Shown: piece by piece, positions 15,764 to 30,918 of the stretch
Position numbering within the stretch: position 1 is the stretch's first letter
Layout of the letters: each line of letters starts with the position of its first letter
From: Streptomyces sp. WZ-12
GTDB taxonomy: Bacteria > Actinomycetota > Actinomycetes > Streptomycetales > Streptomycetaceae
Direction of reading: 5' to 3'
DNA length: 64,000 bases
Assembly: GCF_028898845.1 (NCBI RefSeq)
Contig: NZ_CP118574.1
Span: 4,375,001 to 4,439,000 of the forward strand
Program-made: the position numbers and the translations under genes
Notes under the pieces: model-generated
What the model was told of the DNA's origin: nothing
Seen by the model: the letters and a program-made list of their open reading frames with translations, nothing else
The model's database searches: none

Positions 15764-15851
15764 GGTAGCGTGTCCGAGCGGCCGAAGGAGCTCGCCTCGA
15801 AAGCGAGTGTGGCGCAAGTCACCGAGGGTTCAAATCCCTCCGCTACCGCCA
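15764..15851 (+). tRNA. tRNA-Ser (anticodon CGA)
   Basis: A complete type II tRNA is visible. The acceptor stem is GGTAGCG/CGCTACC, the anticodon loop CTCGAAA gives anticodon CGA, there is a long variable arm, the T-loop is GTTCAAATC, and the CCA end is encoded. It decodes UCG serine codons. Confidence 0.95.
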
Positions 15852-16780: not shown

Positions 16781-17275
16781 CGCGTACCTCCCTGATCACG
16801 CTCGGCGGGCTGAGGTTGGTGGGCTCAGGTTACCCCTCTGCCTCCTCGTCGCGCGCTGTCGCCCAGGGCGGTCTATCCGGGCACGGCCGGACCGGGAGAA
16901 CACTGGCCACAGGGGCCCTGCGACCAAGCCGGAAGCTGGCGTTCACGCTGTCGGCGACAAGATCCGTCGTCGCCGCTCCCCTCAGGGGACTGACCACGAA
17001 AGTGACTCCCGTAGTCCACTACGGATGAGATCACTCCCTCCCACCCCCGGAAGCCCACCGGTCCTGCGATGGCAGCGGCGTTCACTGTGGGGAAAAGAAG
17101 CGGCTCCAACAGAGCCAAGCCTTGGGGCAACTCGGCGGAGGCGCGGTGCACTTGGGTGGCGGTGCCGGCATCGCCCTGGTGTGGCGGGGGAATCTCCGTC
17201 GGCGGAATCGGGTTGCCCGCCATGACGGCGAGGGCCATGGGGGCCGCAGCCGCCGTGGGGAGGGGACGGGAGTCG
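16781..17275. other. Gap without a recognisable gene
   Basis: This 495-bp stretch separates the Uma2 gene and the LysR gene. Short frames are present but lack ribosome binding sites and family features. It probably holds the promoters of both flanking genes, which point away from each other. Confidence 0.45.
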
Positions 17276-18172
17276 ATGAGTCTTCGTCAGTTCGAGTACG
17301 CGCTGGCCGTTGCCGAGGAGGGGTCGGTGACGGCGGCCGCGGAGCGGCTGCGCGTCGCTCAGCCGTCGGTGTCGCAGCAGATCCGCGGCCTGGAGCGGGA
17401 GCTCGGCGTGGAGCTGTTCGCCCGCACGCCGACCGGGCTGGTGCCCACCGCGGTCGGCCGCGCGTTCCTGCGGGACGCGGAGGCCGCGGTGAGCGCGGCG
17501 CGGCGGGCGAGGGCGACGGCGCGGGCCGGTGCCGAAGAGCTGGTGGGTGAGGTGGTGGTCGCGGTGCAGATGGGCTTCGGCACGCGGCAGTTGCCCGGCG
17601 CGCTGGGCGCGCTGCGCCGTCGCTTCCCGCGGCTGGAGGTCACCGTCTTCGAGGAGCCGAGCTCCGCCGAGTTGGAGCGGCTGTGCCGCCGGGGCGTGCT
17701 GGACCTCGCGCTGATGGCGGCGTGCAAGCGGAGCCCCGCCGACGCCCACCACCTCGGCGACGAGGAGTTCGTCGTGGTGCTGGGCGCCGGGCACCCGCAG
17801 CTCGCCGCGGACCGGGTCGCGCTGCGCGAGCTGGCCGGCGAGCCGTGGGTGCGGTTCGACCGCGACAGCGCGCTCGACGGCGTGCTGTTGGAGGTGTTGC
17901 GGGGCCACGAGCTGACCCCGACCACGGCCGCCCGGGTGTCCCAGACGGCGACGGCCGTGCGCTGGGCCGCCCACGGGCTGGGGGTGACGCTGGTCCCGGC
18001 CTCCGCGGTGCCGCACGGCTACGAGCACCTCGTGCGCCCGGTGTTCCCGGCCGTCTCCCAGCCCGTCATCGCCGTGCTCCGGCAGGCGGCGGGCCCGGCG
18101 GAGACGGCCCTGCTCGCACTCCTGCGTCAGGAGACCTGGGCCGAATCCGCGCTCTCCTCACCGGTGCGTTGA
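17276..18172 (+). CDS. LysR-family transcriptional regulator
   Basis: The 298-residue protein has a LysR N-terminal winged helix-turn-helix (MSLRQFEYALAVAEEGSVTAAAERL, then QPSVSQQIRGLERELGVELF) and a type 2 periplasmic-binding-fold effector domain. The open frame begins at 17069, but the conserved start is ATG 17276 behind GGGGAGGGGACGG. It is convergent with the SDR gene and stands about 2.3 kb from the first biosynthetic gene, so it may or may not belong to the cluster. Confidence 0.88.
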   Translation: MSLRQFEYALAVAEEGSVTAAAERLRVAQPSVSQQIRGLERELGVELFARTPTGLVPTAVGRAFLRDAEAAVSAARRARATARAGAEELVGEVVVAVQMGFGTRQLPGALGALRRRFPRLEVTVFEEPSSAELERLCRRGVLDLALMAACKRSPADAHHLGDEEFVVVLGAGHPQLAADRVALRELAGEPWVRFDRDSALDGVLLEVLRGHELTPTTAARVSQTATAVRWAAHGLGVTLVPASAVPHGYEHLVRPVFPAVSQPVIAVLRQAAGPAETALLALLRQETWAESALSSPVR

Positions 18173-18257: not shown

Positions 18258-19034
18258 TCAGCCCCGGGGGAATTCGCCGCCGTCCACGACGAGATTGCTC
18301 CCGGTCAGCCAGCCCGCGCGGTCGGACGCGAGGAACAGCACCGCGTGGGCGATGTCGTCGGGTTGGCCCTCGCGCCCCAACGGCGGGGTGTCGTGGGCGT
18401 TGGTCTGGCCCGGCGCCGCGTTCAGGCGCGCCCACTGCTCCCGCGTCGCCTCGCCGCCGGGGGTGGCGACCCGGCCGGGAGTCACGGTGTTGACCCGGAT
18501 TCCGAACGGGGCCAGTTCCATGGCCAGTCCCCGGCTGTAGTTCTCCAGCGCGGCCTTCGCCGTGGTGTAGTGCAGGAACTGTCCCATAGGGGTGCGGACC
18601 GCGGCCGAGGAGACGTGCACGATCAGCCCCGAACGCCGTTCCCGCATCCCCGGAGCCAGCAGCGAGTCCAGCCGCACCGACGCCAGGAAGTTCAGGTCCA
18701 GCGCGTCCTGCCACTCCTCGTCCGGGATGGCCGCGGCGCTCTCGTGCGGTTGCGCCCCTCCCGCGTTGTGGACCAGGACGTCCACCCCGCCGAGCACGTC
18801 CTGCGCGGCCGCGGCGAGCTCCTGTGCGCCGGCCCGCGTCCGCACGTCGGCCGCCACGAAGGCGGCCCCCTCCGGCGCCGTGCTCGTCGCCGACCGGGCG
18901 CTCGTGAGCACCTGGGCGCCCGCGTCCAGGAGTTGGCGGACGACGGCCGCGCCGATTCCACGGGTGCCGCCCGTGACCAGGGCCCGCTTTCCCGCGAGTT
19001 CCCGCGTTCCCGAGCCGTTCTCGTTTGTGGTCAT
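18258..19034 (-). CDS. Short-chain dehydrogenase/reductase
   Basis: This 258-residue classical SDR has the cofactor motif TGGTRGIG (21-28), the NAG motif (NNAG-type, VHNAGG), and the catalytic Ser142/143-Tyr156-Lys160. It uses NAD(P)H to interconvert an alcohol and a ketone, often during fatty acid or polyketide-like metabolism. It is divergent to the flavin reductase at 19537 across a 502-bp regulatory region, which makes it a candidate member of the biosynthetic cluster. Confidence 0.88.
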   Translation of the reverse strand: MTTNENGSGTRELAGKRALVTGGTRGIGAAVVRQLLDAGAQVLTSARSATSTAPEGAAFVAADVRTRAGAQELAAAAQDVLGGVDVLVHNAGGAQPHESAAAIPDEEWQDALDLNFLASVRLDSLLAPGMRERRSGLIVHVSSAAVRTPMGQFLHYTTAKAALENYSRGLAMELAPFGIRVNTVTPGRVATPGGEATREQWARLNAAPGQTNAHDTPPLGREGQPDDIAHAVLFLASDRAGWLTGSNLVVDGGEFPRG

Positions 19035-19201
19035 GGTGAGGTCACTGGTCCTTTCGATCGCATGAGCGCCTGCTCGACTCCATAAGGGGCGACGCGCACG
19101 GAGCCGGGCCTTCGGGGGAAGGGCGGTGCGCGCCTCATCGAGCCGTTTCACGGTAGGTCCGGGAAAGGACGCGGAGCAAAGACGAAATGTCAGCAGGGGG
19201 T

Positions 19202-19216
19202 ATAGGGGGTTCCTAT
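19202..19216. promoter_or_regulatory. Dyad in the cluster promoter region
   Basis: ATAGG-N5-CCTAT forms a perfect short dyad within a G-rich stretch. It resembles the general shape of sites bound by LuxR-type regulators (GGG...CCC half-sites), but the match is by eye only. The site lies in the 502-bp gap between the SDR and flavin reductase genes, which otherwise holds no gene. Confidence 0.35.
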
Positions 19217-19370
19217 GGCGCGACGGGAGCGGTGTTCGTGACGGGCGGCCAACTGGAGTTAGGTGGGGGCGAGTTGTGGACGTGACCGCCGGACGTTTGG
19301 GTCGCGCGCCGCATCCCGGTTGCCGATGCCGGGCGGCACCGTCCCGAAACGCTCCCACCACCCGTCTACC

Positions 19371-19409
19371 CAAGTGAGTAGTGGACTCCCTCACTTGAAC
19401 GAGTAGTGG
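19371..19409. promoter_or_regulatory. Operator candidate: inverted and direct repeats upstream of the cluster
   Basis: CAAGTGAG (19371-19378) and CTCACTTG (19390-19397) form a perfect 8-bp inverted repeat. GAGTAGTGG occurs twice, at 19376 and 19401, 25 bp apart. The block lies about 130 bp upstream of the first biosynthetic gene and is the strongest regulatory-looking motif there. Confidence 0.5.
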
Positions 19410-19536
19410 CTCGGAATTGTCCGCAACCGTACAGTCGAAACGCACCCAAGCAGCAGCGCCCGAACCGCCGGCAACGACCCGCAGGGTCCGCGTCGACGGC
19501 GGGCGACTATATGGCAAAGGGCGGTGTCGGCGAATT

Positions 19537-20088
19537 ATGGATGCATTACTGGCCAGCGGGCGAGATGACATTCCCGAATGCCAGGAGAGCGATTTTCGCG
19601 CCGCGGCAGGCAAGTTCGCCTCCGGCGTTACCGTGGTGACCACGCGGAATGGTTGCGAGGTGTACGGCAAGACAGTTTCCGCCTTCGGCTCGCTGTCCCT
19701 CGACCCGCTGATGGTGTCGGTGTCGATCGGCCGGCTGAGTCCGCTGGTCGCCGCGATCCTGAAGGCCGAGGTCTTCGCGGTCAGCGTGCTGCGTCATGAC
19801 CAACAGCAGGTGTCCCGGCACTTCTCCACCCGCGGCAACGGCCGCGCGCTCGGCGCGTTCCCCTCCGTGGGGACCGAGAAGGCGGTGACCGGCGCCCCGG
19901 TGATCTCCGGGTGCCTGAGCTACTTCGACTGCCGCCTGGAGAACGTGGTGGGCGGCGGTGACCACGCGATCATCATCGGGCGGGTGGCGGCCGCGGCGGG
20001 CGGCGACGGGAAGCCGCTGCTCTACTTCGACGGCGACTACCGCGAGATCCGGTCCACGGCCCCCGTAGCGGGCGTGCCGGCGCACTAA
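19537..20088 (+). CDS. Flavin reductase (HpaC/StyB-like)
   Basis: This 183-residue protein has the flavin reductase-like split beta-barrel: FRAAAGKFASGVTVVTT, then GKTVSAFGSLSLDPLMVSVSI, and YFDGDYREI at the end. Such enzymes reduce FMN or FAD with NAD(P)H and pass it by diffusion to a monooxygenase. The natural partner here is the StyA-like protein at 25159. The open frame extends to 19417, but homology begins after ATG 19537. The fourth codon is TTA (19546-19548), read only by the bldA tRNA in Streptomyces, so translation of the first cluster gene is probably development-dependent. Confidence 0.85.
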   Translation: MDALLASGRDDIPECQESDFRAAAGKFASGVTVVTTRNGCEVYGKTVSAFGSLSLDPLMVSVSIGRLSPLVAAILKAEVFAVSVLRHDQQQVSRHFSTRGNGRALGAFPSVGTEKAVTGAPVISGCLSYFDCRLENVVGGGDHAIIIGRVAAAAGGDGKPLLYFDGDYREIRSTAPVAGVPAH

Positions 20089-20132
20089 CTCCGGTACCAC
20101 ACGGACCAGTTGACGGGACAACGGATATCACC

Positions 20133-21641
20133 ATGCCCTCACCAGCGTTCTCCGCCCTCGACGAACACGCGCGCTCTCGGCCCGGCACCCCGGCCCTGCT
20201 GTACGGGGAGCGGACGGTGTCGTACCGGGAACTGACCGGCCTCGCCGACGGGTTCCGCGCGTGGCTGACCCACTACGGCCCGGCGCCAGGCACCCCCGTG
20301 TGCGTGCGGGCACACAAGTCGCCCGAGGTCGTCGCCCTGATCCTGGCCTGCCTGTTGGAGCGGCGGCCGGTCCTGCTGCCGTCGGCGGAGCTCGGCGCGC
20401 AGACGCTCCACGAACTCGTCGCCGCGGCCGGCATCCGTCACCTCCTCTCGCCCGGCGGGCCCGACGCCGACGTGACGGTGGAGACCGTCGAGGCGCATCC
20501 GGACGCGCCCGCCGTCCCGGAGGGGACGGGCCTGCTCCTGACCACCTCGGGCTCCACCGGCATGCCGAAGGTCGTGCCGCTGGCGACGGACCGGCTCGCG
20601 CCGTTCTTCGCCTGGGCGTCCGAGCACTTCGGGATCGGCCCCGGCACCCGTGTGCTGAACTACGCCCCGCTCAACTTCGACCTGTGCCTGCTCGACGTCT
20701 GGACCACGCTGGTGGCCGGCGGCTGCGTCGTCATGGTCGAGCGGGACCACGCCACCGACGGGCGCCACCTGCGCGCGCTGGTCGAACGGAGCGGGGCGGA
20801 GGTCGTGCAGGCGGTGCCCATGTTCTACCGGCTGCTGCACGACGCGGACCCGGGCGCGGGCCCGCTCGAAGGGCCCCGGCACGTCATCTTCACCGGCGAC
20901 GCCATGCCGGCGAAGCTGGCCGCCGCCCTGCCCCGGCTCTTCCCCAAGGCGGCGCTGCACAACGTCTACGGCTGCACCGAGACCAACGACAGCCTCGTCT
21001 TCGACGCCGCCCCCGGCCAACTGGAGCGCTGGGACGTCGCGGTGCCGCTCCCCCTGGGGCGCCCCCTGCCCGGGGTGCGCGCCCTGCTCATCGGGGAGGA
21101 CGGGCGGGAGCTCGAAGGCCCAGGGCGCGGCGAGTTGTTGGTGCACACGCCCTTCCAGACGGGTGGCTACCTCGACCCGGCGCTCGGGCGGGACCGCTTC
21201 GTCCGCAGAGCGGACGCCGACGGGCCGCGCACCTACTTCCGCAGCGGCGACGTCGTCGTCCGGGCGGCGGACGGGACGCTGTCGCTGGCCGGGCGGGCCG
21301 ACTTCCAGGTCAAGGTGCGCGGGGTGCGGATCAACGTCCAGGAGGTCGAGCAGGTCATCTCGGAACACCCGGACGTGGCCGAGGCGGTGGTCGTCGCCCT
21401 GCCCGACGAGGTGGCGGGCCACACGCTGCACGCGTTGGTACGGCGCGCCCCCGACACCGGCCTGCACAGTCTGGCGCTGCGTCAGCACTGCGCCACCAGG
21501 CTGCTCAGAACGTCCATCCCCGCCGACATCCGCATTGTCGACGAAGACCTACCCAAGGGCCTGACCGGAAAGGTCGATCGGGCCGCGGTCAAGAGCTTGA
21601 GGATGAAGGGACAAGGCCAAGAAAGTGGACAACGTACCTGA
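20133..21641 (+). CDS. Stand-alone amino acid adenylation enzyme
   Basis: This 502-residue AMP-binding enzyme activates a carboxylic acid as the adenylate and loads it on a carrier protein. Core motifs are present: TTSGSTGMPK (137-146), NFDLCLLD (A4), NVYGCTETND (A5), YFRSGDVV (A7), GRADFQVKVRGVRINVQEVE (A8) and PKGLTGKVDR with the catalytic Lys (A10). The A4 FD, with Asp at the amino-group-binding position, points to an alpha-amino acid. It overlaps the carrier protein gene by 17 bp. The set with a carrier and an acyl-CoA dehydrogenase resembles the prolyl-carrier systems (PltF/RedM), but the pocket read by eye does not clearly fit proline. Confidence 0.85.
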   Translation: MPSPAFSALDEHARSRPGTPALLYGERTVSYRELTGLADGFRAWLTHYGPAPGTPVCVRAHKSPEVVALILACLLERRPVLLPSAELGAQTLHELVAAAGIRHLLSPGGPDADVTVETVEAHPDAPAVPEGTGLLLTTSGSTGMPKVVPLATDRLAPFFAWASEHFGIGPGTRVLNYAPLNFDLCLLDVWTTLVAGGCVVMVERDHATDGRHLRALVERSGAEVVQAVPMFYRLLHDADPGAGPLEGPRHVIFTGDAMPAKLAAALPRLFPKAALHNVYGCTETNDSLVFDAAPGQLERWDVAVPLPLGRPLPGVRALLIGEDGRELEGPGRGELLVHTPFQTGGYLDPALGRDRFVRRADADGPRTYFRSGDVVVRAADGTLSLAGRADFQVKVRGVRINVQEVEQVISEHPDVAEAVVVALPDEVAGHTLHALVRRAPDTGLHSLALRQHCATRLLRTSIPADIRIVDEDLPKGLTGKVDRAAVKSLRMKGQGQESGQRT

Positions 21642-21888
21642 GATCAAGCGGTTTCTCATCAAGGAATTCCTGCCCGATGTGACCGCCGACCAACTCGACG
21701 CCGATCTTGATCTGTTGGAGACCGGGGTCATCGACAGCCTCCAGTTGGTCCGGGTCATCTCCTGGCTCACCGAACGGTTCGGCATCCCCATCGAGCAGGT
21801 GGAGCTCGCGCCGGACAACTTCCGCTCGGTGAACACCATGCAGAAGTTCATCGAGTCGGCGACGAGCGGTGCGGTCTCCGCTCACTGA
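21625..21888 (+). CDS. Stand-alone peptidyl/acyl carrier protein
   Basis: This 87-residue carrier protein has a GTG start. Its phosphopantetheine attachment site is Ser38 in GVIDSLQL, in the variant form typical of stand-alone carriers such as PltL or CloN5. Its start lies inside the end of the adenylation gene, so the two are translationally coupled and should form a loading pair. It would hold the activated amino acid during oxidation by the downstream acyl-CoA dehydrogenase homologue. Confidence 0.88.
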   Translation: MDNVPEIKRFLIKEFLPDVTADQLDADLDLLETGVIDSLQLVRVISWLTERFGIPIEQVELAPDNFRSVNTMQKFIESATSGAVSAH

Positions 21889-21957
21889 ACCAACTACCCA
21901 CGAATTCCCGGCGACTTCGCCATGGGGGTTCGGTCGGCCTAGAAAAGGAGTAATCCC

Positions 21958-22335
21958 ATGTTCGCCCGAGTGAAGTCCGACGTCCAGGTCGTCGATTGGG
22001 GCAATGGCCTCAGCCACCGCCTCGTGGTGAAGTCCGACGAAATGGGTTTCACGGTTGCCGACACCCTCGTCCGGGCCGGCACCAAGTCCCGCCTGCAGTA
22101 CCGCAATCACCTGGAAGCCTGCTACTGCGTCGGCGGCAGGGGCGAGGTGGCCAGCGCGGACGGCTCGACGACGGTCAGGCTGGAGCCCGGCGTGCTCTAC
22201 GCGCTCAACGAGCACGACGCCCACTTCCTCATAGCCGACCCCGACGAGGACCTCCACCTGATCAGCGTCTTCAACCCCCCGCTGAACGGCGACGAGGTCC
22301 ACAGCCTCGACGAGAGCGGCTTCTCCTGCTACTGA
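21958..22335 (+). CDS. Ectoine synthase-like cupin
   Basis: The 125-residue protein is a homologue of EctC, the iron cupin that closes the tetrahydropyrimidine ring of ectoine by water elimination. The metal ligands known from EctC (Glu, Tyr, His) are retained as Glu53, Tyr81 and His89, within NHLEACYCVGGRGEV and LYALNEHDAHFL. The end motif VFNPPLNGDEVH is also kept. A strong ribosome binding site (AAAAGGAGT) precedes ATG 21958. No ectA or ectB is nearby, so a cyclodehydration in the cluster product is more likely than ectoine synthesis. The exact substrate is unknown. Confidence 0.82.
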   Translation: MFARVKSDVQVVDWGNGLSHRLVVKSDEMGFTVADTLVRAGTKSRLQYRNHLEACYCVGGRGEVASADGSTTVRLEPGVLYALNEHDAHFLIADPDEDLHLISVFNPPLNGDEVHSLDESGFSCY

Positions 22336-22342
22336 CGGCCGT

Positions 22343-22381
22343 CCTCCCGGGGCGGACCGGCCCCCGGCCCGCCCCGGGAGG
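22343..22381 (+). terminator. Hairpin between cupin and dehydrogenase genes
   Basis: A 13-bp stem (CCTCCCGGGGCGG with CCGCCCCGGGAGG) lies just after the cupin stop. There is no T-run. It may attenuate transcription inside the cluster. Confidence 0.5.
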
Positions 22382-22439
22382 GGCTCGCGTCCCCTCCTGC
22401 ATACCCCCTCGTACGACGAGACCTTGGAAGTGGTGAGCT

Positions 22440-23579
22440 GTGATCCAGTGGACCGATGATCAGCGCGAACTGCGGGAGGCAGTGCTCCCGTTGGGTGCGC
22501 GGCTCAGCGAAGGCCACCTGGAGCGGGACGCCCGTGGCGAGTTCTCCCGTGAGCTGTGGAAGCTCGTCCAGGACTCCGACCTGCTGCGGTTGCCCACCGA
22601 CGAGAAGTGGGGCGGGCTCGGCCAGTCCCTGCTGACCACCCTGTACGTCCTGGAGGGCCTGGGCTACTCCTGCCGCGACGGCGGCCTGTCCTTCTCCGTC
22701 ACCACCCACATGGTCAGCACCGGCGTCCCCCTCCAGCGCTTCGGGTCCGACGCCCTCAAGCGGCGCTTCCTGCCCGCGGTGTGCGCGGGCGACGTCATCG
22801 GGGCGCATGCCATCTCCGAGCCGGAGGCCGGCTCGGACATGCTCAACATGCGCACCACCGGGCGGGTGGAGGACGGCCACCTCGTCCTGAACGGCAACAA
22901 GTCCTTCGTCTCGAACGGGGCGGTGGCCGACGTCTTCGTCGTCTACGTCTCCACCGGGGCGCAGGGCAGCCCCTTCGGGGTCACCGCCGTGCTGGTCGAG
23001 CGCGACACCCCCGGCCTGACCGTCGGCAAGCCGATGTCCAAGATGGGGTTGCGCACCTCGACGCTGACGGAGCTGTTCTTCGACGACTGCCGGGTCCCCC
23101 TGGAGAACGTCATCGGCCGGACCGGCTCGGGCTTCCTCGTCTTCGACCACGTGATGAAGTGGGAGGTGCTGTGCTCCTTCATCGTCAACGTGGGAGAGAT
23201 GCAGCACCGCCTTGAGCGGGTCCTCGAATACGCCAAGTCCCGCCAGCAGTTCGGCAAGAGCATCGGCTCCTTCCAGTCCGTGGCGAACCGCGTCGTCGAC
23301 ATGCGGATCACCGTCGAGACGGCCCGGCGCGCCCTGTACGAGGCGGCGCTGAAGGTGGCCGCGGGCGAGGACGCCACCGTCGACGTCGCCACCGCCAAAC
23401 TCCTGGCCTCGGAGGGCAATCTGTCCACGGCCATCGCGGCCGTGCAGACCTTCGGCGGTTACGGATACATGACCGAGTACGGCCTCGAACAGGACGTACG
23501 CAATGCGCTGGCCGGGACGATCTACTCGGGCACCAGCGACATCCAGCGCACCCGCATCGCAGCCATGATGGGCCTTTGA
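22440..23579 (+). CDS. Acyl-CoA dehydrogenase homologue, probably acting on carrier-bound substrate
   Basis: This FAD enzyme of 379 residues has the family signatures AISEPEAGSDM (124-134) and the C-terminal GYGYMTEYGLEQDVRNALAGT. The usual base of short/medium-chain enzymes, the Glu of YEGT, is Ser363 (IYSGTSDIQR). A Glu at 242 (VMKWEVLC) occupies the place of the alternative base used by isovaleryl-CoA dehydrogenase and by prolyl-carrier oxidases such as PigA. With the adenylation enzyme and carrier next to it, desaturation of a tethered amino acyl group is the best guess. GTG start behind GGAAGTGG. Confidence 0.85.
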   Translation: MIQWTDDQRELREAVLPLGARLSEGHLERDARGEFSRELWKLVQDSDLLRLPTDEKWGGLGQSLLTTLYVLEGLGYSCRDGGLSFSVTTHMVSTGVPLQRFGSDALKRRFLPAVCAGDVIGAHAISEPEAGSDMLNMRTTGRVEDGHLVLNGNKSFVSNGAVADVFVVYVSTGAQGSPFGVTAVLVERDTPGLTVGKPMSKMGLRTSTLTELFFDDCRVPLENVIGRTGSGFLVFDHVMKWEVLCSFIVNVGEMQHRLERVLEYAKSRQQFGKSIGSFQSVANRVVDMRITVETARRALYEAALKVAAGEDATVDVATAKLLASEGNLSTAIAAVQTFGGYGYMTEYGLEQDVRNALAGTIYSGTSDIQRTRIAAMMGL

Positions 23580-23595
23580 GAGGGGACACGCCGCC

Positions 23596-24285
23596 ATGAG
23601 CCATGAGGAGAACCTGGCGGAACTCCGTCGCCCCACGGAGTTCCTCGACCACGAGACCGACGCCGTACGGGAGTTCGTCGCCAAGGCCGTCGGCGACGCC
23701 GACACCGAGACCGAGCGGGCGGTGCGCCTCTACTACGCGGTGCGCGACGGCCTGAACTACGAGGTCTACGGCACCAAGCTCTCCCGCGAGGCGCTGCGCG
23801 CCAGCTCCATCGCCCGCGCCGGAGTGGGCTTCTGCGTCCACAAGTCCATCCTGTACGCCGCCGCCGTGCGCGCCGTCGGCATCCCCAGCCGTCTGGTGTA
23901 CGCCGATGTCCGCAACCACCTGGCCTCGGAGCGGCTGAAGAAGATGGTCGGCGGGGAGGTCTTCCACCACGGTCTGGTCTCCGTCCACCTCGGCGGCCGG
24001 TGGCTGCGGGTGACCCCGGTCTTCAACAAGCTGCTGTGCCGCCTGTACGGCATGGCACCGCTGGAGTTCGACGGCACGTCGGACAGCCTCTACCACCCGT
24101 ACGACGGACGCGACGGCGCCCGGATGGAATTCCTGAAGGACTACGGCGCTTACGCAGACGTCCCCTTCGACCTGCTGCTGGAGCGGATGCGCGCCAAGCA
24201 TCCCGGCATGTTCACCGACCACGAAGTGGTCGCGGGCAGCGGGTCGTTGGCCGACGAGGCACCAGCCCGAGCGTCAACCGTCTGA
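23596..24285 (+). CDS. Transglutaminase-like cysteine acyltransferase/hydrolase
   Basis: The 229-residue protein has a transglutaminase-like papain fold. GVGFCVHKSIL carries the nucleophile Cys80 and FHHGLVSVHLGGRW carries His125. The third triad position, normally Asp in a W-x-x-x-D motif, reads WLRVTPVFN, so the acid is missing or displaced. Family members can transfer or hydrolyse thioester- or amide-bound acyl groups. A role in releasing the product from the carrier, or in amide formation, is inferred. It lies 16 bp after the dehydrogenase and 19 bp before the SMR genes. Confidence 0.72.
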   Translation: MSHEENLAELRRPTEFLDHETDAVREFVAKAVGDADTETERAVRLYYAVRDGLNYEVYGTKLSREALRASSIARAGVGFCVHKSILYAAAVRAVGIPSRLVYADVRNHLASERLKKMVGGEVFHHGLVSVHLGGRWLRVTPVFNKLLCRLYGMAPLEFDGTSDSLYHPYDGRDGARMEFLKDYGAYADVPFDLLLERMRAKHPGMFTDHEVVAGSGSLADEAPARASTV

Positions 24286-24304
24286 GAGGAACACCTTCAC
24301 CACC

Positions 24305-24625
24305 ATGGCCTGGTTCTACTTAGCCCTCGCCGTCGTCTTCGAGATCATCTTCGCGCTCGGCGCGAGCGCCTCCCAGGGCTTCACCAAGCTCAAGGAGTCG
24401 CTGATCACCGTGGTCGGCGTCGTCGGCGGCATCTACTTCATCAGCCTGGCACTCAAGACCCTGGACGTGGGGGTCGGCTATCCGATCTGGACCGGCATCG
24501 GAGCGGTCGGCACGGTGGTCTTCGGAGCGCTGATCTTCAAGGAGAAGATCACCCCGGCCAAGGTGGTCTGCTTCCTCGCCATCATCGGCGGCGTCGTCGG
24601 CCTCAAGACCCTGTCGGGGGTGTGA
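24305..24625 (+). CDS. SMR-family transporter subunit 1
   Basis: This four-helix small multidrug resistance protein has 106 residues. It shows the essential membrane Glu in VVFEIIFALG (helix 1) and GVGYPIWTGIGAVGTV in helix 3. SMR proteins exchange protons for small cationic molecules. The sixth codon is TTA (24320-24322). The gene runs directly into a second SMR gene, a layout typical of heterodimeric pairs. It most likely exports the cluster product or protects the producer from it. Confidence 0.9.
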   Translation: MAWFYLALAVVFEIIFALGASASQGFTKLKESLITVVGVVGGIYFISLALKTLDVGVGYPIWTGIGAVGTVVFGALIFKEKITPAKVVCFLAIIGGVVGLKTLSGV

Positions 24626-24627
24626 CG

Positions 24628-25062
24628 ATGAGCGCTCCCCAGCAGCCGGCCCCCAAGAAGCAGAGCGCCGCGGCCGCCTGGACGCTGCTCCTGATCGCCG
24701 CGGCGATCGAGGTGGTCTTCGCCCTCAGCTCCGGCGCCAACGGCGGCTTCACCAAGCTGGTCCCGTCGATCATCACCATCGTCGCGGGCGGCGGCGGTGT
24801 CTACCTCCTCAGCCTCGCCCTGAAGTCCATCGACGTCGGCATCGGCTACACGGTCTGGACCGGCATCGGTGCCGTCGGCTCCGTCCTCCTCGCGGCGGTG
24901 CTGTACGGCGAGCAGATCACGCTCGGCAAGGTGATCTGCTTCCTCGCGATCATCGGTGGCGTGATCGGCCTCCACCTCACCTCCGAGGAGCCCAAGGACG
25001 AACCCGTCCTCGACGGCTCCTCCGAGCCGGAGGCCGAGCCCGCCTCCCACCCCTCCGCCTGA
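24628..25062 (+). CDS. SMR-family transporter subunit 2
   Basis: This SMR protein has 144 residues, longer than usual owing to a Lys/Gln-rich head and an acidic tail (EEPKDEPVLDGSSEPE). It keeps the helix 1 Glu in IAAAIEVVFALS and GIGYTVWTGIGAVGSV. ATG 24628 starts 2 bp after the first SMR stop. With that gene it should form a heterodimeric antiporter. A clear terminator follows, closing this transcription unit. Confidence 0.9.
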   Translation: MSAPQQPAPKKQSAAAAWTLLLIAAAIEVVFALSSGANGGFTKLVPSIITIVAGGGGVYLLSLALKSIDVGIGYTVWTGIGAVGSVLLAAVLYGEQITLGKVICFLAIIGGVIGLHLTSEEPKDEPVLDGSSEPEAEPASHPSA

Positions 25063-25069
25063 GGCGGCC

Positions 25070-25116
25070 GGCCCGCCCCCTCGTGCCGGGGGCGGGCCCC
25101 ACTCTCCCCCTTTTTT
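25070..25116 (+). terminator. Intrinsic terminator after the SMR pair
   Basis: An 11-bp GC stem (GGCCCGCCCCC/GGGGGCGGGCC, 25070-25098) with a 7-base loop is followed by a T6 run at 25111-25116. It separates the first cluster operon from the StyA-like gene. Confidence 0.75.
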
Positions 25117-25158
25117 CGCCTCTCCCCTTTTCCGTACGTCTCGCAGAAGGAGCATGCC

Positions 25159-26400
25159 ATGAGGTCGATCGCCATCGTCGGCGCCGGACAGGCGGGTGTC
25201 CAACTCGCGCTCGGTCTGCGCCAACAGGGCTACGACGTCACGCTGGTGTCGAACCGCACGCCGCAGCAGGTGCTCGACGGTCGGGTCATGTCGACCCAGA
25301 TCATGTTCGGCGACTCGATGGCGATCGAGCGCGACCTCGGCCTGGACCGCTGGCAGGACGAGGCCCCCACCATCGAGGGGCTCTCGTTCACCATCGCCCT
25401 CGACGCGGCGAAGCACATCGACTTCGAGGCGCGGCTGGCCGCACCCGCCCAGTCCGTGGACCAGCGGGTCAAGATCGCCGCCTGGCTGCGGGAGTTCGAG
25501 GCGGCCGGCGGCGCGCTGCGGATCGCCGAGGCGGGCGTTGCGGACCTGGAGTCGCTCGCCGCCTCGCACGACCTCGTCGTCGTCGCGGCGGGCAAGGGCG
25601 AGCTCGGCAAGCTCTTCGAGCGGGACGCCAAGCGCTCGGCCTTCGACGGCCCGCAGCGCGTCGCCGCCGTCTCCTACGTGCACGGCCTGCGGCCCCGCGA
25701 CACCTTCGTCTCCTGCGGCGCCAACCTGATGCCCGGCCTCGGCGAGTACTTCATCGTTCCCGCGCTCACCAAGAGCGGCCCCTGCGACTGCATCTTCCTC
25801 AACGCGGTGCCCGGCGGGCCGCTCGACGCCTTCGGGAACGTCTCGTCCCCCGAGGAACACCTCGCGCTCACCAAGGAGTTGCTCGACAAACACCTGCCCT
25901 GGGAGGGCGAGCGGGCCGCCGAGGCGCGCCTCACCGACGCGGGCGGCGTCCTCGCCGGGCGCATCCCGCCGACCGTCCGCAGGCCGGTGGCCACCCTGCC
26001 CTCGGGCCGGTCCGTGCTCGGCCTGGCCGACGTCGTCGTCCTCAACGACCCGGTGACCGGGCAGGGTTCCAACAACGCGGCGAAGAGCGCCGACGTCTAC
26101 CTGCGGGAGATCCTCGCCCGCGGCGCCGACCGCTTCGACGCGGACTGGATGAACGCGACGTTCGAGAAGTTCTGGGAGTACGCCCGGCACGTGGTCCGCT
26201 GGACCAACGGGCTGCTGCCGCCCGCCCCCGACCACGTCGTGGCCCTCTTCGACGCCGCCCAGCACGCGCCCTCGCTCGCCTCCGCCATCGCCGAGGGCTT
26301 CAACCGGCCACCGTCCCTGGACCCGTGGTGGTACGACGCGGACGCCGCCCAGCGCGAGATCGCCGCGCACCGCAACGCCCCGGCCGGGACCGGCCGATGA
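25159..26400 (+). CDS. StyA-like FAD-dependent monooxygenase
   Basis: The 413-residue protein belongs to the two-component styrene/indole monooxygenase oxygenases. It starts with the FAD-binding motif SIAIVGAGQAGVQLALGL. It continues with family-like segments such as VMSTQIMFGD, NLMPGLGEYFIVPALT and NDPVTGQGSNNAAKS near the C-terminal FAD site. These enzymes epoxidise alkenes or oxygenate heteroaromatics using reduced FAD from a separate reductase. The gene at 19537 encodes a suitable reductase. ATG follows AGAAGGAG. Its end overlaps the UbiD-like gene (ATGA). Confidence 0.87.
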   Translation: MRSIAIVGAGQAGVQLALGLRQQGYDVTLVSNRTPQQVLDGRVMSTQIMFGDSMAIERDLGLDRWQDEAPTIEGLSFTIALDAAKHIDFEARLAAPAQSVDQRVKIAAWLREFEAAGGALRIAEAGVADLESLAASHDLVVVAAGKGELGKLFERDAKRSAFDGPQRVAAVSYVHGLRPRDTFVSCGANLMPGLGEYFIVPALTKSGPCDCIFLNAVPGGPLDAFGNVSSPEEHLALTKELLDKHLPWEGERAAEARLTDAGGVLAGRIPPTVRRPVATLPSGRSVLGLADVVVLNDPVTGQGSNNAAKSADVYLREILARGADRFDADWMNATFEKFWEYARHVVRWTNGLLPPAPDHVVALFDAAQHAPSLASAIAEGFNRPPSLDPWWYDADAAQREIAAHRNAPAGTGR

Positions 26401-27827
26401 CGGACGAACTGCCCGGCCTCTCGCTGCGCGCCGCGCTGCGGGAGGCCCGCGGGCACGAGCCCGGGGCCTACCACGAGCACGACGAGCCGCACGACCCCAC
26501 GACCATCGGGGCGCACTACGCCGCCCACTACGCGGGGGCGCCCGCCACCCCCTCCGGCCGGAGCGAGGACATCGCCGTCTACACCCGCGTCGCGGGCGGT
26601 TCGGTCCCGGTCGCGGTCGGCGCGTACGGGGACGCCGAGCGGCTGCGCCGCTGGCTGCCGGGGCTGCCCCGGCGCGCCAACGCCGGCACCGCCGCCGCGC
26701 TGACCGAGGCGTTCCGGCCCCCCGTGCACCTCGACTCCTCGCCCTTCGCGCACCGCACGACCGGCGACCGGGTGGGCCTCGGCGCGCTGCCGGCCCTGCA
26801 CACCACGCCCCGCGACGCCGGTCCGTACCTCACCACCGGCCTGCTCCACGCGCACGATCCGGCCACCGGGCGGACCGCAACCGCCGTGCACCGCATGCTC
26901 ATTCGGGACGAGCGGCACGTGGTCATCTGGATGCTGCCGAGCCGGCGGCTGCGGGCCATGCACCAGGACGCGCGGGAACGCGGCGAGCGGCTGCCGGTGA
27001 CGATCAACATCGGCGCGCCCCCGGCGGCCATGCTCGCCTCCGCCGTCGGCTCCGCCTTCCTCCCGCCCGGCACGGACAAGGTGCAGCTCGCCGGCGCACT
27101 GGCCGGGGCGCCGCTGGTCCTCGCGCCCGCGGTCACCCAGCCGGTCTCCGCCTTCGCGGCCTCGGAGATCGTCCTGGAGGGCTATCTGGACGACACCACG
27201 GCCGATGAGGCGCTGCCCGGGCGGGAGTTGGCGGGCTCGCTGCCCGAGGTGCTCGGCAACGACGGCCGGGGCGCCGCCGACCTGCCCGTCATCACGGTCA
27301 CCGCCGTCACGACCCGTGAGGACCCCGTCTTCCAGGCCGTGATCGGCCCCGGTCGCGAGCAGTCGCTGATCCTCGGGCTGGCCGGCGAACTGGCCGTGGC
27401 CCTGTCGGGCGTCGGCGGCGCGCTGCTCCTCGACGCGCACTACGCGCCCGCGGGCGGCGGGATGTTCCTGCTGGTGGTGCAGGTCCGCAAGGACTCCGCG
27501 GCCGTCGACGGGCAACTGCCCGGCCTGGCCAAGGAGATCTTCGAGCGCCATCCGTTCGTCAAGCTGCTGGTCTTCGTCGACGAGGACGTCGATCCGTCCT
27601 CGCCCGAGGACCTGCTGTGGGCGCTGACCACCCGTGCCAACCTCTCCGTCGACGCGGCCCACGTGGAGGGCTTCGCGCGCATCGGGCTCGACCCCTCGCA
27701 GACCGTCGCCTGGGACGGCGCGCGCGGCCGGTCCGCGGGGGGACACCGCAGCTACGTCGACGCCACCGCCCCGTACGCGATGCGGGGCGCGGTGCGGCGC
27801 AGCTTCCTCGATCCGCTGGAGGGCTGA
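26397..27827 (+). CDS. UbiD-family prenyl-FMN decarboxylase, divergent
   Basis: This 476-residue protein is of the UbiD type, which uses prenylated FMN to (de)carboxylate alpha,beta-unsaturated or aromatic acids. Visible features are the N-terminal LPGLSLRAALREARG, GLLHAHDPATGRTATAVHRMLI, INIGAPPAAMLAS, and ASEIVLEGYLDD. The EGPFGE motif, which carries two catalytic glutamates in fungal Fdc1, is not visible; the equivalent stretch reads ALPGRELAGSLPEV. The enzyme may have altered chemistry. It is ATGA-coupled to the StyA-like gene and TGATG-coupled to the UbiX-like gene. Confidence 0.85.
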   Translation: MTDELPGLSLRAALREARGHEPGAYHEHDEPHDPTTIGAHYAAHYAGAPATPSGRSEDIAVYTRVAGGSVPVAVGAYGDAERLRRWLPGLPRRANAGTAAALTEAFRPPVHLDSSPFAHRTTGDRVGLGALPALHTTPRDAGPYLTTGLLHAHDPATGRTATAVHRMLIRDERHVVIWMLPSRRLRAMHQDARERGERLPVTINIGAPPAAMLASAVGSAFLPPGTDKVQLAGALAGAPLVLAPAVTQPVSAFAASEIVLEGYLDDTTADEALPGRELAGSLPEVLGNDGRGAADLPVITVTAVTTREDPVFQAVIGPGREQSLILGLAGELAVALSGVGGALLLDAHYAPAGGGMFLLVVQVRKDSAAVDGQLPGLAKEIFERHPFVKLLVFVDEDVDPSSPEDLLWALTTRANLSVDAAHVEGFARIGLDPSQTVAWDGARGRSAGGHRSYVDATAPYAMRGAVRRSFLDPLEG

Positions 27828-28459
27828 TGCCGATGGAGGGCCACGGGCGGGACCTGCGACTGGTCGTCGGCATCACCGGGGCGACCGGCTCCCTCATCGG
27901 CATCCGGCTGCTGCAGACGCTGCGGGCGCTGGGGGTGGAGACCCATCTCGTACTGAGCAAGTGGGGCCGCGCCACGGTGGAGTTGGAGACCGACTGGACG
28001 GCGGCGGAGGTGATGGCCCTGGCCAGCCGCGCCTACGGGCCGGGCGACCAGGCGGCGGCGATCTCCAGCGGCTCGTACCGCACCGACGGCATGATCATCG
28101 CGCCGTGCAGCATGAAGACGCTGGCGGCGGTGCGCGCCGGGTTCGGCGACGGCCTGGTGCACCGCGCCGCGGACGTGACGCTCAAGGAGCGGCGTCGGCT
28201 GGTTCTGGTCCCCCGCGAACTCCCGCTTTCCGAAATTCATCTGGAGAACATGCTGGCCCTGACGAGGATGGGTACGGTGATCGCACCTCCGATGCCGGCC
28301 TTCTACAACCGGCCCGAGAGCGTCGAGGACATCGTCGCGCACGTCGTCGCACGGGTCCTGGACCAGTTCGACCTCCAGGCGCCCGACGCGAGGCGCTGGA
28401 CCGGCCCGGACCGGCGTACCCGGGGCCGTCGTGAGGAGGACACCCTGCTCCACCGCTGA
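27827..28459 (+). CDS. UbiX-like flavin prenyltransferase
   Basis: UbiX enzymes attach a dimethylallyl group to FMN and so make the prenyl-FMN cofactor of UbiD. The 210-residue protein shows the flavin-binding start VVGITGATGSLIGIRLL, the conserved PCSMKTLAAVRAG, VLVPRELPLSEIHLENML and APPMPAFYNRP. It directly overlaps the UbiD-like gene, so the two form a working pair. ATG 27833 is an alternative start. The C-terminal 25 residues are charged and not typical of the family. Confidence 0.9.
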   Translation: MPMEGHGRDLRLVVGITGATGSLIGIRLLQTLRALGVETHLVLSKWGRATVELETDWTAAEVMALASRAYGPGDQAAAISSGSYRTDGMIIAPCSMKTLAAVRAGFGDGLVHRAADVTLKERRRLVLVPRELPLSEIHLENMLALTRMGTVIAPPMPAFYNRPESVEDIVAHVVARVLDQFDLQAPDARRWTGPDRRTRGRREEDTLLHR

Positions 28460-28512
28460 CATCCCGTCCCGACTCGAACCAGCCCCGCACACTCCAGGAG
28501 AACCACCCCGAT

Positions 28513-29634
28513 ATGCCCTCCACACACCCCGCGTTGACGCCCGCGCAGCTCGGCCCGTTCAAGCTCGCCAACCGGGTGGCCGTCGCCCCGATGTCCCGGG
28601 TCAGCACCGCGGGAGACGGTGTCCCCACCGCCGAGATGGCCCGGTACTACGCGCGCTTCGCCCAGGGCGGCTTCGCGTTGGTCATCACCGAAGGCGTCTA
28701 CCTCGACCACGCCTACAGCCAGTCCTACCCCGACCAGCCCGCACTGGTCACCGACGAGCAGGTCGCCGGCTGGCGGCGGGTGGTGGACGCGGTGCACGCC
28801 GAAGGCGGCCTGCTCGTCGCGCAGTTGATGCACGGCGGCGCGCTGTCGCAGCACAACCACCACCGCGAGGGCACCCTCGCGCCGTCCGAAGTACCGCCGC
28901 TCGGCGCGAAGATGGCCGCGTACGGCGGGTCGGGGGCCTGGGCGCTGCCGCGCGCCGCCACCGACGCGGACCTCGCCGAGGCGGTTGAGGGCTTCGCGCG
29001 GGCCGCCGTCCGGGCCAAGGAGGCGGGCTTCGACGGCGTCGAACTGCACGGCGCCAACGGCTACTTGATCGACCAGTTCCTCACCACGTACACCAACACC
29101 CGCACCGACGGCTACGGCGGTGACGTGGCCGGACGCAGCCGTTTCATGGTGGAGGCGCTGCGGGCGGTGCGGGCGGCCGTCGGCGCCGAGTACCTGATGG
29201 GCATACGGCTGTCCCAGACGAAGGTGAACGACCTGGAGTACCGCTGGCCCGGCGGCGCCACGGAGGCCGAGCAGATCTTCCGGGCCGCGGCCGGGGCCGG
29301 GGCGGACTTCCTCCACCTGGCCAGCGAGGGCCGCGACTGGCAGCAGACCGCCACGCTCGACACCGGCGTCACCGCCACGGCCCTGGCCCGCGAGGTCACC
29401 GGCCGCCCGGTGATCGCCAACGGCGGCATGCACGACGTGGAGCAGGCCCGGGCGGTCCTCGACGAGGGGCACGCCGATCTGCTCGCGCTCGGCCGCGGGG
29501 CCCTGGGCGACCGGGACTGGCCGCAGCGCGTCGCGGACGGGCGGGCGCCGAGCGCCTTCGCCTCCGAACTACTGCGGCCCGACGTCACGTTGGGCGCCGA
29601 GCGCGCCTACCGTGACCGCATCGACGTGCACTGA
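28513..29634 (+). CDS. Old yellow enzyme-family ene-reductase
   Basis: This FMN-dependent TIM-barrel reductase of 373 residues reduces activated C=C bonds with NAD(P)H. Typical segments are GPFKLANRVAVAPMSR, VAQLMHGGALS, GVELHGANGYLIDQFL followed by NTRTDGYGG, and the phosphate-binding ANGGMH and LALGRGALGD. ATG 28513 follows CAGGAGAA. It ends the co-directional cluster and is convergent with the LuxR-type regulator, 12 bp away. Confidence 0.9.
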   Translation: MPSTHPALTPAQLGPFKLANRVAVAPMSRVSTAGDGVPTAEMARYYARFAQGGFALVITEGVYLDHAYSQSYPDQPALVTDEQVAGWRRVVDAVHAEGGLLVAQLMHGGALSQHNHHREGTLAPSEVPPLGAKMAAYGGSGAWALPRAATDADLAEAVEGFARAAVRAKEAGFDGVELHGANGYLIDQFLTTYTNTRTDGYGGDVAGRSRFMVEALRAVRAAVGAEYLMGIRLSQTKVNDLEYRWPGGATEAEQIFRAAAGAGADFLHLASEGRDWQQTATLDTGVTATALAREVTGRPVIANGGMHDVEQARAVLDEGHADLLALGRGALGDRDWPQRVADGRAPSAFASELLRPDVTLGAERAYRDRIDVH

Positions 29635-29646
29635 TATCGCGCCGGA

Positions 29647-30918
29647 TCAGGTCTGCCGCTCGCCTTCCGGGACCTCGTCCGCGCGTCCGGTCCGCTGCTG
29701 GACCGCCCTGATCAGCTCGACCCGCGAATTGACCCCGAACACCCGGAAGATCTTCCTGAGGTGGTAGTTGACGGTGTGCGGGGAGAGCCGGAGCTGACGG
29801 GCGATCCGTTGGTTGGTCAGTCCCTCGCAGACCAGCCTGATGATGCTGCTCTGCTTCTCGGTGAAGCCCCCGACGAAGGTCTCCGGGTCGATCTCGAAGC
29901 CCGGGGGGTCCGGTGCGCCCCGGTCGTCGGCCGGCGGCGGACCGGGCGGGTCGGCGGGGTGCCAGAGGGGGTGCTGCGCGGCGGCCTGCCGTTGCAGCGC
30001 CGCCTGCACGGTGGGCGGCATCCAGTCCGAGATCAGCCGCCAGAGCAGTTCGTCGCAGAACACCAGCTTGTCGCCCTGGTGCACCAGCACGCCGGCCGAG
30101 ACCAACTCGTCCAGGACCGGCAGGAGTTCCAGCGGCGGACGCTGCATCATGTCGGCCACCTGCCCGAAGGAGACCTCGCGGCCGAGCGTGGCCGCCACCC
30201 GCACCATCTGCCGGAACGCGTCGGAGTAGCCGAGCAGCGAGCGGTGCACGCGCTGCGTCAGCCGCCGGGGGATGCGGTCCTCGACGAGTTCGGCCCGGTG
30301 TCCGACGACGGCGATGCTGCGCTCCTCGCGCATCCCCTCCACCAGCTCGTGCAGGCGCCGCGGATGCCCGCCGGCCCTGAGCAGCACCCGCGTCAACTCC
30401 GGGCTGGGGCCGGCCCCCAGGACGTCGGTGCAGACCGCCAACGAGGCCGGGGCGTCCAGTGGGCCGAGGGCGATGCGCCGGTTGACGGCGACGGGGCTGG
30501 AGATGAAGTTGTCGAGCGGGGGCGCCCCGGCGCGCGTCCGGCGGGCCAGGATCCAGGCCGTGGGCGTGCCGTAGTGGCTGTTGGCGTTCTCCGACACCAG
30601 CGCGTTGACGGCCTCGTCCCCCAGGTGGTGGGCGTTGTCGAAGGCCATGACCGCGGGCCTGCCGGCCATGGACACCTGCCGGGCCCGTGAGAGGCGCGCC
30701 GCGCGCCGCTTGTCGAGGGTGGTCAGGGCGACGGACAGGCCCAGACCGCTGGCGACCCTCAGGGACTCCCGCAGCAGCCGGGTCTTGCCCATCCCGATCG
30801 GGCCCTCAAGGGTGATCAGTGCGGTGCCGCCGTCACGACAGAATTCGAGGATTTTGGTAAGGCACGCCATTTCCTCCACGCGTCCGCGCAGAGGTGTGTC
30901 TGACGCGTCTAAGTGCAC
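29647..30918 (-). CDS. LAL/LuxR-type ATPase regulator with TTA codon
   Basis: The 423-residue product is an ATP-binding transcriptional regulator. A P-loop GPIGMGKTRLLRE follows the start, with a Walker B-like AVMAFDNAHH, and the C-terminal LuxR helix-turn-helix is EKQSSIIRLVCEGLTNQRIARQLRLSPHTVNYHLRKIF. It is about half the length of classical LAL regulators. GTG 30918 has a strong ribosome binding site (GGGGGAGGGA); the frame is open further upstream. Codon 3 is TTA (30910-30912), implying bldA control. It is the likely pathway-specific activator of the cluster. Confidence 0.88.
   Translation of the reverse strand: MHLDASDTPLRGRVEEMACLTKILEFCRDGGTALITLEGPIGMGKTRLLRESLRVASGLGLSVALTTLDKRRAARLSRARQVSMAGRPAVMAFDNAHHLGDEAVNALVSENANSHYGTPTAWILARRTRAGAPPLDNFISSPVAVNRRIALGPLDAPASLAVCTDVLGAGPSPELTRVLLRAGGHPRRLHELVEGMREERSIAVVGHRAELVEDRIPRRLTQRVHRSLLGYSDAFRQMVRVAATLGREVSFGQVADMMQRPPLELLPVLDELVSAGVLVHQGDKLVFCDELLWRLISDWMPPTVQAALQRQAAAQHPLWHPADPPGPPPADDRGAPDPPGFEIDPETFVGGFTEKQSSIIRLVCEGLTNQRIARQLRLSPHTVNYHLRKIFRVFGVNSRVELIRAVQQRTGRADEVPEGERQT

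Follow-up and report, generated by a model that had tools for sequence, protein, structure and literature searches.

Proline is converted to pyrrole on carrier proteins by triads of the PigI/PigG/PigA, RedM/RedO/RedW, and Plt kind, and the ectoine synthase EctC can cyclize glutamine as a side activity. In the showdomycin pathway, a C-glycosidase of the PsuG family reportedly acts on 2-amino-1H-pyrrole-5-carboxylic acid that is supplied by nonribosomal peptide synthetase-like enzymes. Here, a compact gene cluster of Streptomyces sp. WZ-12 (genome of 9.5 Mb, two contigs) is compared with these systems. It lies in a stretch of 64,000 nucleotides (contig NZ_CP118574.1, positions 4,375,001 to 4,439,000) that is termed the window below and in which all coordinates of the cluster are given. 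Twelve plus-strand genes, spanning 19537-29634, encode a flavin reductase, a stand-alone adenylation enzyme (A), a carrier protein (CP), an EctC-like cupin, an acyl-CoA dehydrogenase homolog (ACAD), a transglutaminase-like protein (TG), two SMR exporter subunits, a StyA-like flavin monooxygenase, a UbiD-family decarboxylase, a UbiX-type flavin prenyltransferase, and an old yellow enzyme; a LuxR-type regulator gene comes next on the minus strand (families from Pfam and NCBIfam; Table 1). An earlier note, made by a model from the letters and a list of open reading frames, had named the same genes, and all were found with their families correctly assigned.

With a probability of roughly 0.55, the cluster turns an amino acid into a small amidine- or aminopyrrole-type cation and exports it. 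This reading builds on gene content, synteny with other Streptomyces, an adenylation pocket shared with related enzymes, conserved cupin residues, and a tie between UbiD and five of the other genes, from which we infer the product, the substrate, all of the chemistry, and whether decarboxylation precedes oxidation. The gene content agrees in outline with the route sketched in the earlier note, which leads from an amino acid through desaturation, cyclization, oxygenation, and decarboxylation to an exported small basic compound, its chemistry likewise being a proposal.

Proposed pathway

The A enzyme would load an amino acid, most likely L-glutamine, onto CP, and the EctC-like cupin would condense the alpha-amine with the amide of the side chain, a dehydration that yields a cyclic amidine thioester. 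The ACAD would then take off two hydrogens to form 5-aminopyrrole-2-carboxyl-carrier, from which TG would release free 5-aminopyrrole-2-carboxylate by hydrolysis of the thioester. UbiD, with prenylated flavin mononucleotide from UbiX, would strip the carboxylate, and the ring, being rich in electrons, would be oxidized by the StyA-like enzyme and flavin reductase, possibly in the direction of a maleimide-imine. Export of the cation would fall to the SugE/Gdx-like SMR pair, and the LuxR-type protein would regulate the cluster.

Conservation in other Streptomyces

The contigs of the named genomes were scanned once with a cupin profile and the 80 best loci were taken, a list that is incomplete. 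Two of these loci, from Streptomyces sp. UNOB3_S3 (L079) and S. abikoensis JCM 4002 (L080), encode flavin reductase, A, CP, cupin, ACAD, TG, two SMR subunits, StyA, UbiD, UbiX, and LuxR in the order of the window. A third, from S. pathocidini (L081), is syntenic for the first nine genes, and its contig stops inside the StyA gene. DNA similarity between the window and L079/L080 covers positions 19576-28415 and 29710 to about 30650, in pieces of about 65-77 %, with none in the rest of the 64 kb, and the flanks of the cluster differ. A chance neighborhood is ruled out by the synteny kept in two other Streptomyces with different flanks. A quick tree built from 70 ACAD rows places the window, L079, L080, and L081 in one group (SH-aLRT 93), with L082 next.

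In L079 and L080 the LuxR gene directly follows UbiX without an old yellow enzyme, and no match to the latter was found in the 80 best cupin loci. A core step for this enzyme, for example on a maleimide-like ring, was therefore set aside; the enzyme is treated as an extra of the host genome that may still act in Streptomyces sp. WZ-12. Of the 12 genes that the earlier note had taken as one set, the 11 from flavin reductase to UbiX are thus conserved, together with LuxR, leaving the old yellow enzyme outside the set. The complete finishing set (StyA with flavin reductase, UbiD with UbiX, and the SMR pair) is rare: it was seen in the window, L079, and L080 (a further genome, G905, is probably the same as L080).

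A recurrent five-gene cassette

The genes for A, CP, EctC-like cupin, ACAD, and TG, all present together in the window cluster, form a recurrent mobile cassette that was found in combination with five or more different sets of genes. A and ACAD stand alongside the cupin in 69 of the 80 best loci, a proportion that is biased in that the loci were picked via the cupin; CP is encoded in 68 of these 69 and TG in 51. The remaining loci (L112, L126, L127, L141, L142, L144, L145, L146, L147, L149, and L154) were left out as lacking A or ACAD by the thresholds used. Partners among the 69 were TrpD-like proteins (21), TrpB-like pyridoxal phosphate enzymes (20), SMR proteins (15), PsuG-family proteins (14), AONS (9), UbiD (5), StyA at 60 % identity or more (3), and old yellow enzyme (0). 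The PsuG family was scored as Pfam Indigoidine_A, verified on three loci, and the 14 PsuG-bearing loci look like a showdomycin-type C-nucleoside pathway and are putative showdomycin clusters. The cassette resembles a known kind, the showdomycin type.

These counts modify the view of the earlier note that the enzyme set is unfamiliar. The set of finishing genes is indeed rare, but the cassette recurs in most of the best loci. Likewise, the observation that the note had named as refuting it, neighborhoods in which some of the genes travel together, is half borne out: the cassette swaps partners and the old yellow enzyme never co-travels, whereas flavin reductase, the SMR pair, StyA, UbiD, UbiX, and LuxR do co-travel in close relatives.

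The tie between UbiD and the cassette

Since loci found via the cupin cannot test whether UbiD is tied to the cassette, a search that started from UbiD was run (E <= 1e-80). The UbiD subgroup of the window was present in 2 of 392 genomes of a genus sample, 5 of 394 of a family sample, and 1 of 396 of a phylum sample; these samples overlap and each includes the genome of the window, leaving six distinct genomes. In all six the cassette adjoins UbiD. Three of them, G834, G930, and G941, belong to a single further genus within the family and were first met after the rule had been formed. G905 is probably the L080 strain, which had been met earlier, and G330 matches L155. UbiD stands beside StyA and SMR genes in the window and G905, and beside TrpD-, TrpA-, TrpF-, and TrpC-like genes, with no StyA match, in G330, G834, G930, and G941. 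The substrate of UbiD is likely the cassette product or a derivative of it, because the cassette is the partner shared by both kinds of UbiD cluster. TG is present in all five UbiD-bearing loci among the 69, which fits the favored reading, as release of a free acid would need it. On the ACAD tree, the presence of UbiD requires three changes.

A broader reading joins these contexts. The UbiD subgroup would be specialized on aminopyrrole carboxylates from a mobile glutamine cassette, with the window leading to an oxidized 2-aminopyrrole (maleimide-imine-like) cation that has its own Gdx-like SMR export, and other clusters leading, through a copy of the tryptophan pathway, to a pyrrole-fused tryptophan analog. 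We regard this as possible rather than probable.

The StyA-like protein scored 218 against the NCBIfam StyA cut-off of 550. StyA paralogs (E <= 1e-60) occur in 370 of the 392 Streptomyces genomes, with three further copies at 51-54 % in the host, so that StyA alone is useless as a cluster marker.

Substrate and individual enzymes

Nine pocket residues were taken from motif positions in 20 cassette A enzymes, that of the window included. The pattern D-[LV]-[LF]-Q-x-T-x-D-S is common to 18 of them, among them the window enzyme and those of L063, L064, L067, and L077, all with a PsuG-family gene. As this code is so widely kept, one amino acid is probably the substrate across cassette pathways. 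By analogy with the showdomycin route and the cyclization of glutamine by EctC, and given the polar pocket, L-glutamine is the most likely candidate.

At 56 % identity or more, the cupin falls into a group represented in 41 of 392 Streptomyces genomes; outside this group, the best match reaches 46 % and most others are near 40 %. Its score against PF06339 is 122 (cut-off 27). Residues W14, T36, Y48, E53, Y81, H89, E113, and H115 are invariant in 15 sequences and align to EctC residues that we take to be metal and substrate ligands. The host has another EctC, 39 % identical to the cluster cupin, beside which an EctB-like reading frame was noted by eye; neither EctA nor EctB was found among the genes of the cluster by Pfam and NCBIfam. 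An ectoine cluster was ruled out on these grounds, namely a cupin in its own group, a second EctC in the genome, and no EctA or EctB among the cluster genes. Cupins at 58-59 % identity with no cassette around them were seen in Corynebacterium, Arthrobacter, and a Roseivivax metagenome-assembled genome (L141, L142, L144, L145, L147, and L149).

In TG, Cys80 and His125 are invariant in 14 of 14 aligned sequences. The best fold match to its predicted model (mean pLDDT 82) is a putative cysteine protease (E 2e-6), with weaker matches to arylamine N-acetyltransferases and the amide synthase GdmF (query TM-scores <=0.49). TG and AONS, which would itself consume the thioester, never occur together: AONS is encoded by 0 of 51 cassettes with TG versus 9 of 18 without it (raw Fisher p 8.6e-7). 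Correction for descent reduces this to 3 independent pairs when supported branches are counted, or 5 when all are, with a sign test p = 1; the exclusion was dropped as statistical proof of a hydrolase, since the data do not separate it from shared descent.

Observations against the L-glutamine route, and alternatives

Several observations weigh against the route from L-glutamine to an exported aminopyrrole-type cation. The case for glutamine draws on precedent (showdomycin and the side activity of EctC) and on pocket polarity, and two of the 20 A enzymes, from the Trp-type clusters at L072:7032-8366 and L075:11644-12978, have lost the pocket pattern, the A4-motif Asp included. The stand-alone structures nearest to A are beta-aminoacyl-acyl carrier protein (ACP) synthetases (166 bits), followed by prolyl ligases (149 bits). 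The cupin scores above the cut-off of an NCBIfam ectoine synthase subfamily (NF009806, 138 versus 128), TG has Thr140 at the position of the expected family Asp, and the ACAD is nearest to proline dehydrogenases. The structures nearest to UbiD are dihydroxybenzoate decarboxylases, with 7abn and 4ip2, which we take to be the pyrrole-2-carboxylate enzyme, distant from it (52 bits). Finally, the best UbiD match in the S. pathocidini assembly is at 32 %; its UbiD is either in an assembly gap or missing, with the contig end perhaps the cause.

Some of these observations would suit a different amino acid with a nitrogen-bearing side chain (arginine, N-acyl-diaminobutyrate, ornithine, or a beta-amino acid), from which the cupin would form another cyclic amidine, with later steps alike. 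True EctC works on acyl-diaminobutyrate, and the affinity of A to beta-aminoacyl-ACP synthetases points the same way, but the A pocket pattern is shared by four loci with a PsuG-family gene, where the pathway would run through 2-amino-1H-pyrrole-5-carboxylic acid. On balance, a substrate of this kind is unlikely.

The affinities of the ACAD bear on a route from proline, in which pyrrole-2-carboxyl-carrier would arise as it does on the way to prodiginines and pyoluteorin; release, decarboxylation, and oxygenation would follow, and the cupin would be accessory. The nearest NCBIfam models are PigA (367 versus a cut-off of 500) and RedW (350 versus 650), both missed, the nearest solved structure is a prolyl-ACP dehydrogenase, and AnaB-type prolyl dehydrogenases are also close; moreover, the A code starts with DLL, as in proline enzymes. 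Beyond these residues, however, the pocket is polar (Q, T, D, S), unlike the proline code, and the route would leave idle a cupin that accompanies the cassette so often, even allowing for the bias of cupin-found loci, and that keeps its EctC-type residues invariant. A proline route is thus quite unlikely.

A further possibility is that StyA and flavin reductase oxidize the aminopyrrole acid first and UbiD acts on the oxidized or coupled product, maybe a pigment or dimer. The gene order StyA-UbiD-UbiX leaves the reaction order free, and the structures nearest to UbiD act on hydroxylated rings. Against it, three of the named loci combine UbiD with Trp-like genes and have no StyA at 60 % identity or more, so that the UbiD subgroup does not need StyA there. 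We regard this order as very improbable. Decarboxylation of a glutamine-derived aminopyrrole acid before oxidation remains the preferred sequence of steps.

Gene order, spacing, and export

The close packing claimed in the earlier note was borne out by a script run on the coordinates: CP overlaps A by 17 nt, and SMR subunit 2 overlaps subunit 1, and UbiD overlaps StyA, by 4 nt each. Positions 19537 and 30918 are possible start codons of the flavin reductase and LuxR-type genes, respectively. The UbiX gene most likely starts with the ATG at 27827, as the in-frame codon at 27824 is CTG.

Table 1. Genes of the Streptomyces sp. WZ-12 cluster, with positions in the window
Gene product	Position	Strand	Family and remarks
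Flavin reductase	19537..20088	+	Pfam Flavin_Reduct; 75-78 % identical copies in L079-L081; probable partner of StyA-like protein
Stand-alone adenylation enzyme (A)	20133..21641	+	Pfam AMP-binding; pocket residues DLLQITVDS; proposed glutamine loader
Carrier protein (CP)	21625..21888	+	Pfam PP-binding
EctC-like cupin	21958..22335	+	Pfam Ectoine_synth; proposed amidine-forming cyclase
Acyl-CoA dehydrogenase homolog (ACAD)	22440..23579	+	Pfam; proposed ring aromatase on carrier
Transglutaminase-like protein (TG)	23596..24285	+	Pfam Transglut_core; proposed thioester hydrolase
SMR exporter subunit 1	24305..24625	+	Pfam; best NCBIfam model SugE, under cut-off
SMR exporter subunit 2	24622..25062	+	Pfam; best NCBIfam model SugE, under cut-off
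StyA-like flavin monooxygenase	25159..26400	+	Pfam Smoa_sbd; 75-78 % identical in L079-L081
UbiD-family decarboxylase	26397..27827	+	Pfam UbiD and UbiD_C
UbiX-type flavin prenyltransferase	27827..28459	+	Pfam Flavoprotein; NCBIfam ubiX_pad over cut-off
Old yellow enzyme	28513..29634	+	Pfam Oxidored_FMN; outside conserved set
LuxR-type regulator, convergent	29647..30918	-	Pfam GerE; 48-50 % identical in L079 and L080

The SMR subunits scored 82.5 and 78.5 against the SugE model (cut-off 126). Three of the SMR-bearing cassettes are of the type in the window, and SMR presence requires four changes on the ACAD tree. A cationic, amidine-like cargo would fit the pair. An Rfam search found no element in the cluster, SMR genes included, its sole match in the window being a tRNA at 15764-15848; a riboswitch by the SMR genes was dropped for want of such a match within the cluster.

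Upstream lie a short-chain dehydrogenase gene and a LysR-type regulator gene (window 18258-19667, minus strand, and 17069-18172, plus strand). Both are probably outside the cluster, as there is no DNA similarity in this region in L079 and L080.

Other contexts of the cassette

Two loci, L115:6373-17411 and L138:6309-16781, have the genes of the cassette interspersed among TrpD-, TrpA-, TrpB-, TrpF-, and TrpC-like genes, with UbiD and UbiX also present. They amount to a copy of the tryptophan pathway with the cassette in the place of anthranilate synthase, and the product could be a pyrrole-fused tryptophan analog. In three genomes of one other genus (L172, L173, and L174, about 1.3-19 kb), the Trp-like and UbiD set is followed by three adenylation-domain-like stretches, which suggests that the product may be used by a peptide synthetase. 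A TrpB-like pyridoxal phosphate enzyme and an ATP-grasp-like protein accompany the cassette at L083, L084, L089, L091, L094, L095, L105, L109, and L110, possibly as a route to an aminopyrrole-alanine dipeptide. Another 11 loci (L087, L090, L098, L104, L106, L120, L123, L130, L135, L140, and L148) combine it with SMR genes and with a protein distantly related to an arylmalonate-decarboxylase-like one, with no StyA or UbiD matches in any of them. Cassettes with a PsuG-family gene also occur beyond Streptomyces, at L128, L114, L116, and L117 (Burkholderia stagnalis, Curtobacterium, Nocardiopsis).

Implications

If the proposed pathway is true, one compact cassette would be a portable route from a common amino acid to a reactive aminopyrrole, to which bacteria would have joined at least five sets of other genes. 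The UbiD subgroup would gain a substrate class that can be tested, and SugE-like SMR proteins that occur in pairs would gain a candidate for what they carry in nature. Used together, the pocket code and the EctC-like cupin could guide searches for small alkaloids and C-nucleosides, which may escape cluster finders that look for modules.

Comparison with known systems

Showdomycin-type clusters offer a parallel, in that the A-CP-cupin-ACAD-TG cassette, with the A pocket of the window, is also found in relatives that have a PsuG-family gene. The window cluster differs in having flavin reductase, the SMR pair, StyA, UbiD, and UbiX instead of a PsuG-family C-glycosidase, none being present among its genes by Pfam and NCBIfam family calls. 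It resembles the proline triads in its stand-alone A, its carrier, and an ACAD for which PigA and RedW are the nearest models, but its A pocket is polar, an EctC-like cupin is added, and its ACAD falls under the PigA and RedW cut-offs. Similarly, the cupin has the fold family and the aligned metal and substrate residues of ectoine synthase EctC, yet forms its own sequence group. As in the UbiD/UbiX pairs VdcBC, BagM-BagN/FevK-FevL, and AroY, UbiD adjoins a UbiX, here over its family cut-off, whereas UbiD itself is under the NCBIfam UbiD cut-offs and is tied to the cassette. Like StyA/StyB, the window has a flavin reductase and a protein with the StyA substrate-binding domain, the latter, however, under the StyA equivalog cut-off. 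Finally, both exporter subunits match SugE best among the NCBIfam models, a feature shared with SugE/Gdx SMR exporters, but here two unlike subunits, each under the SugE cut-off, stand side by side.

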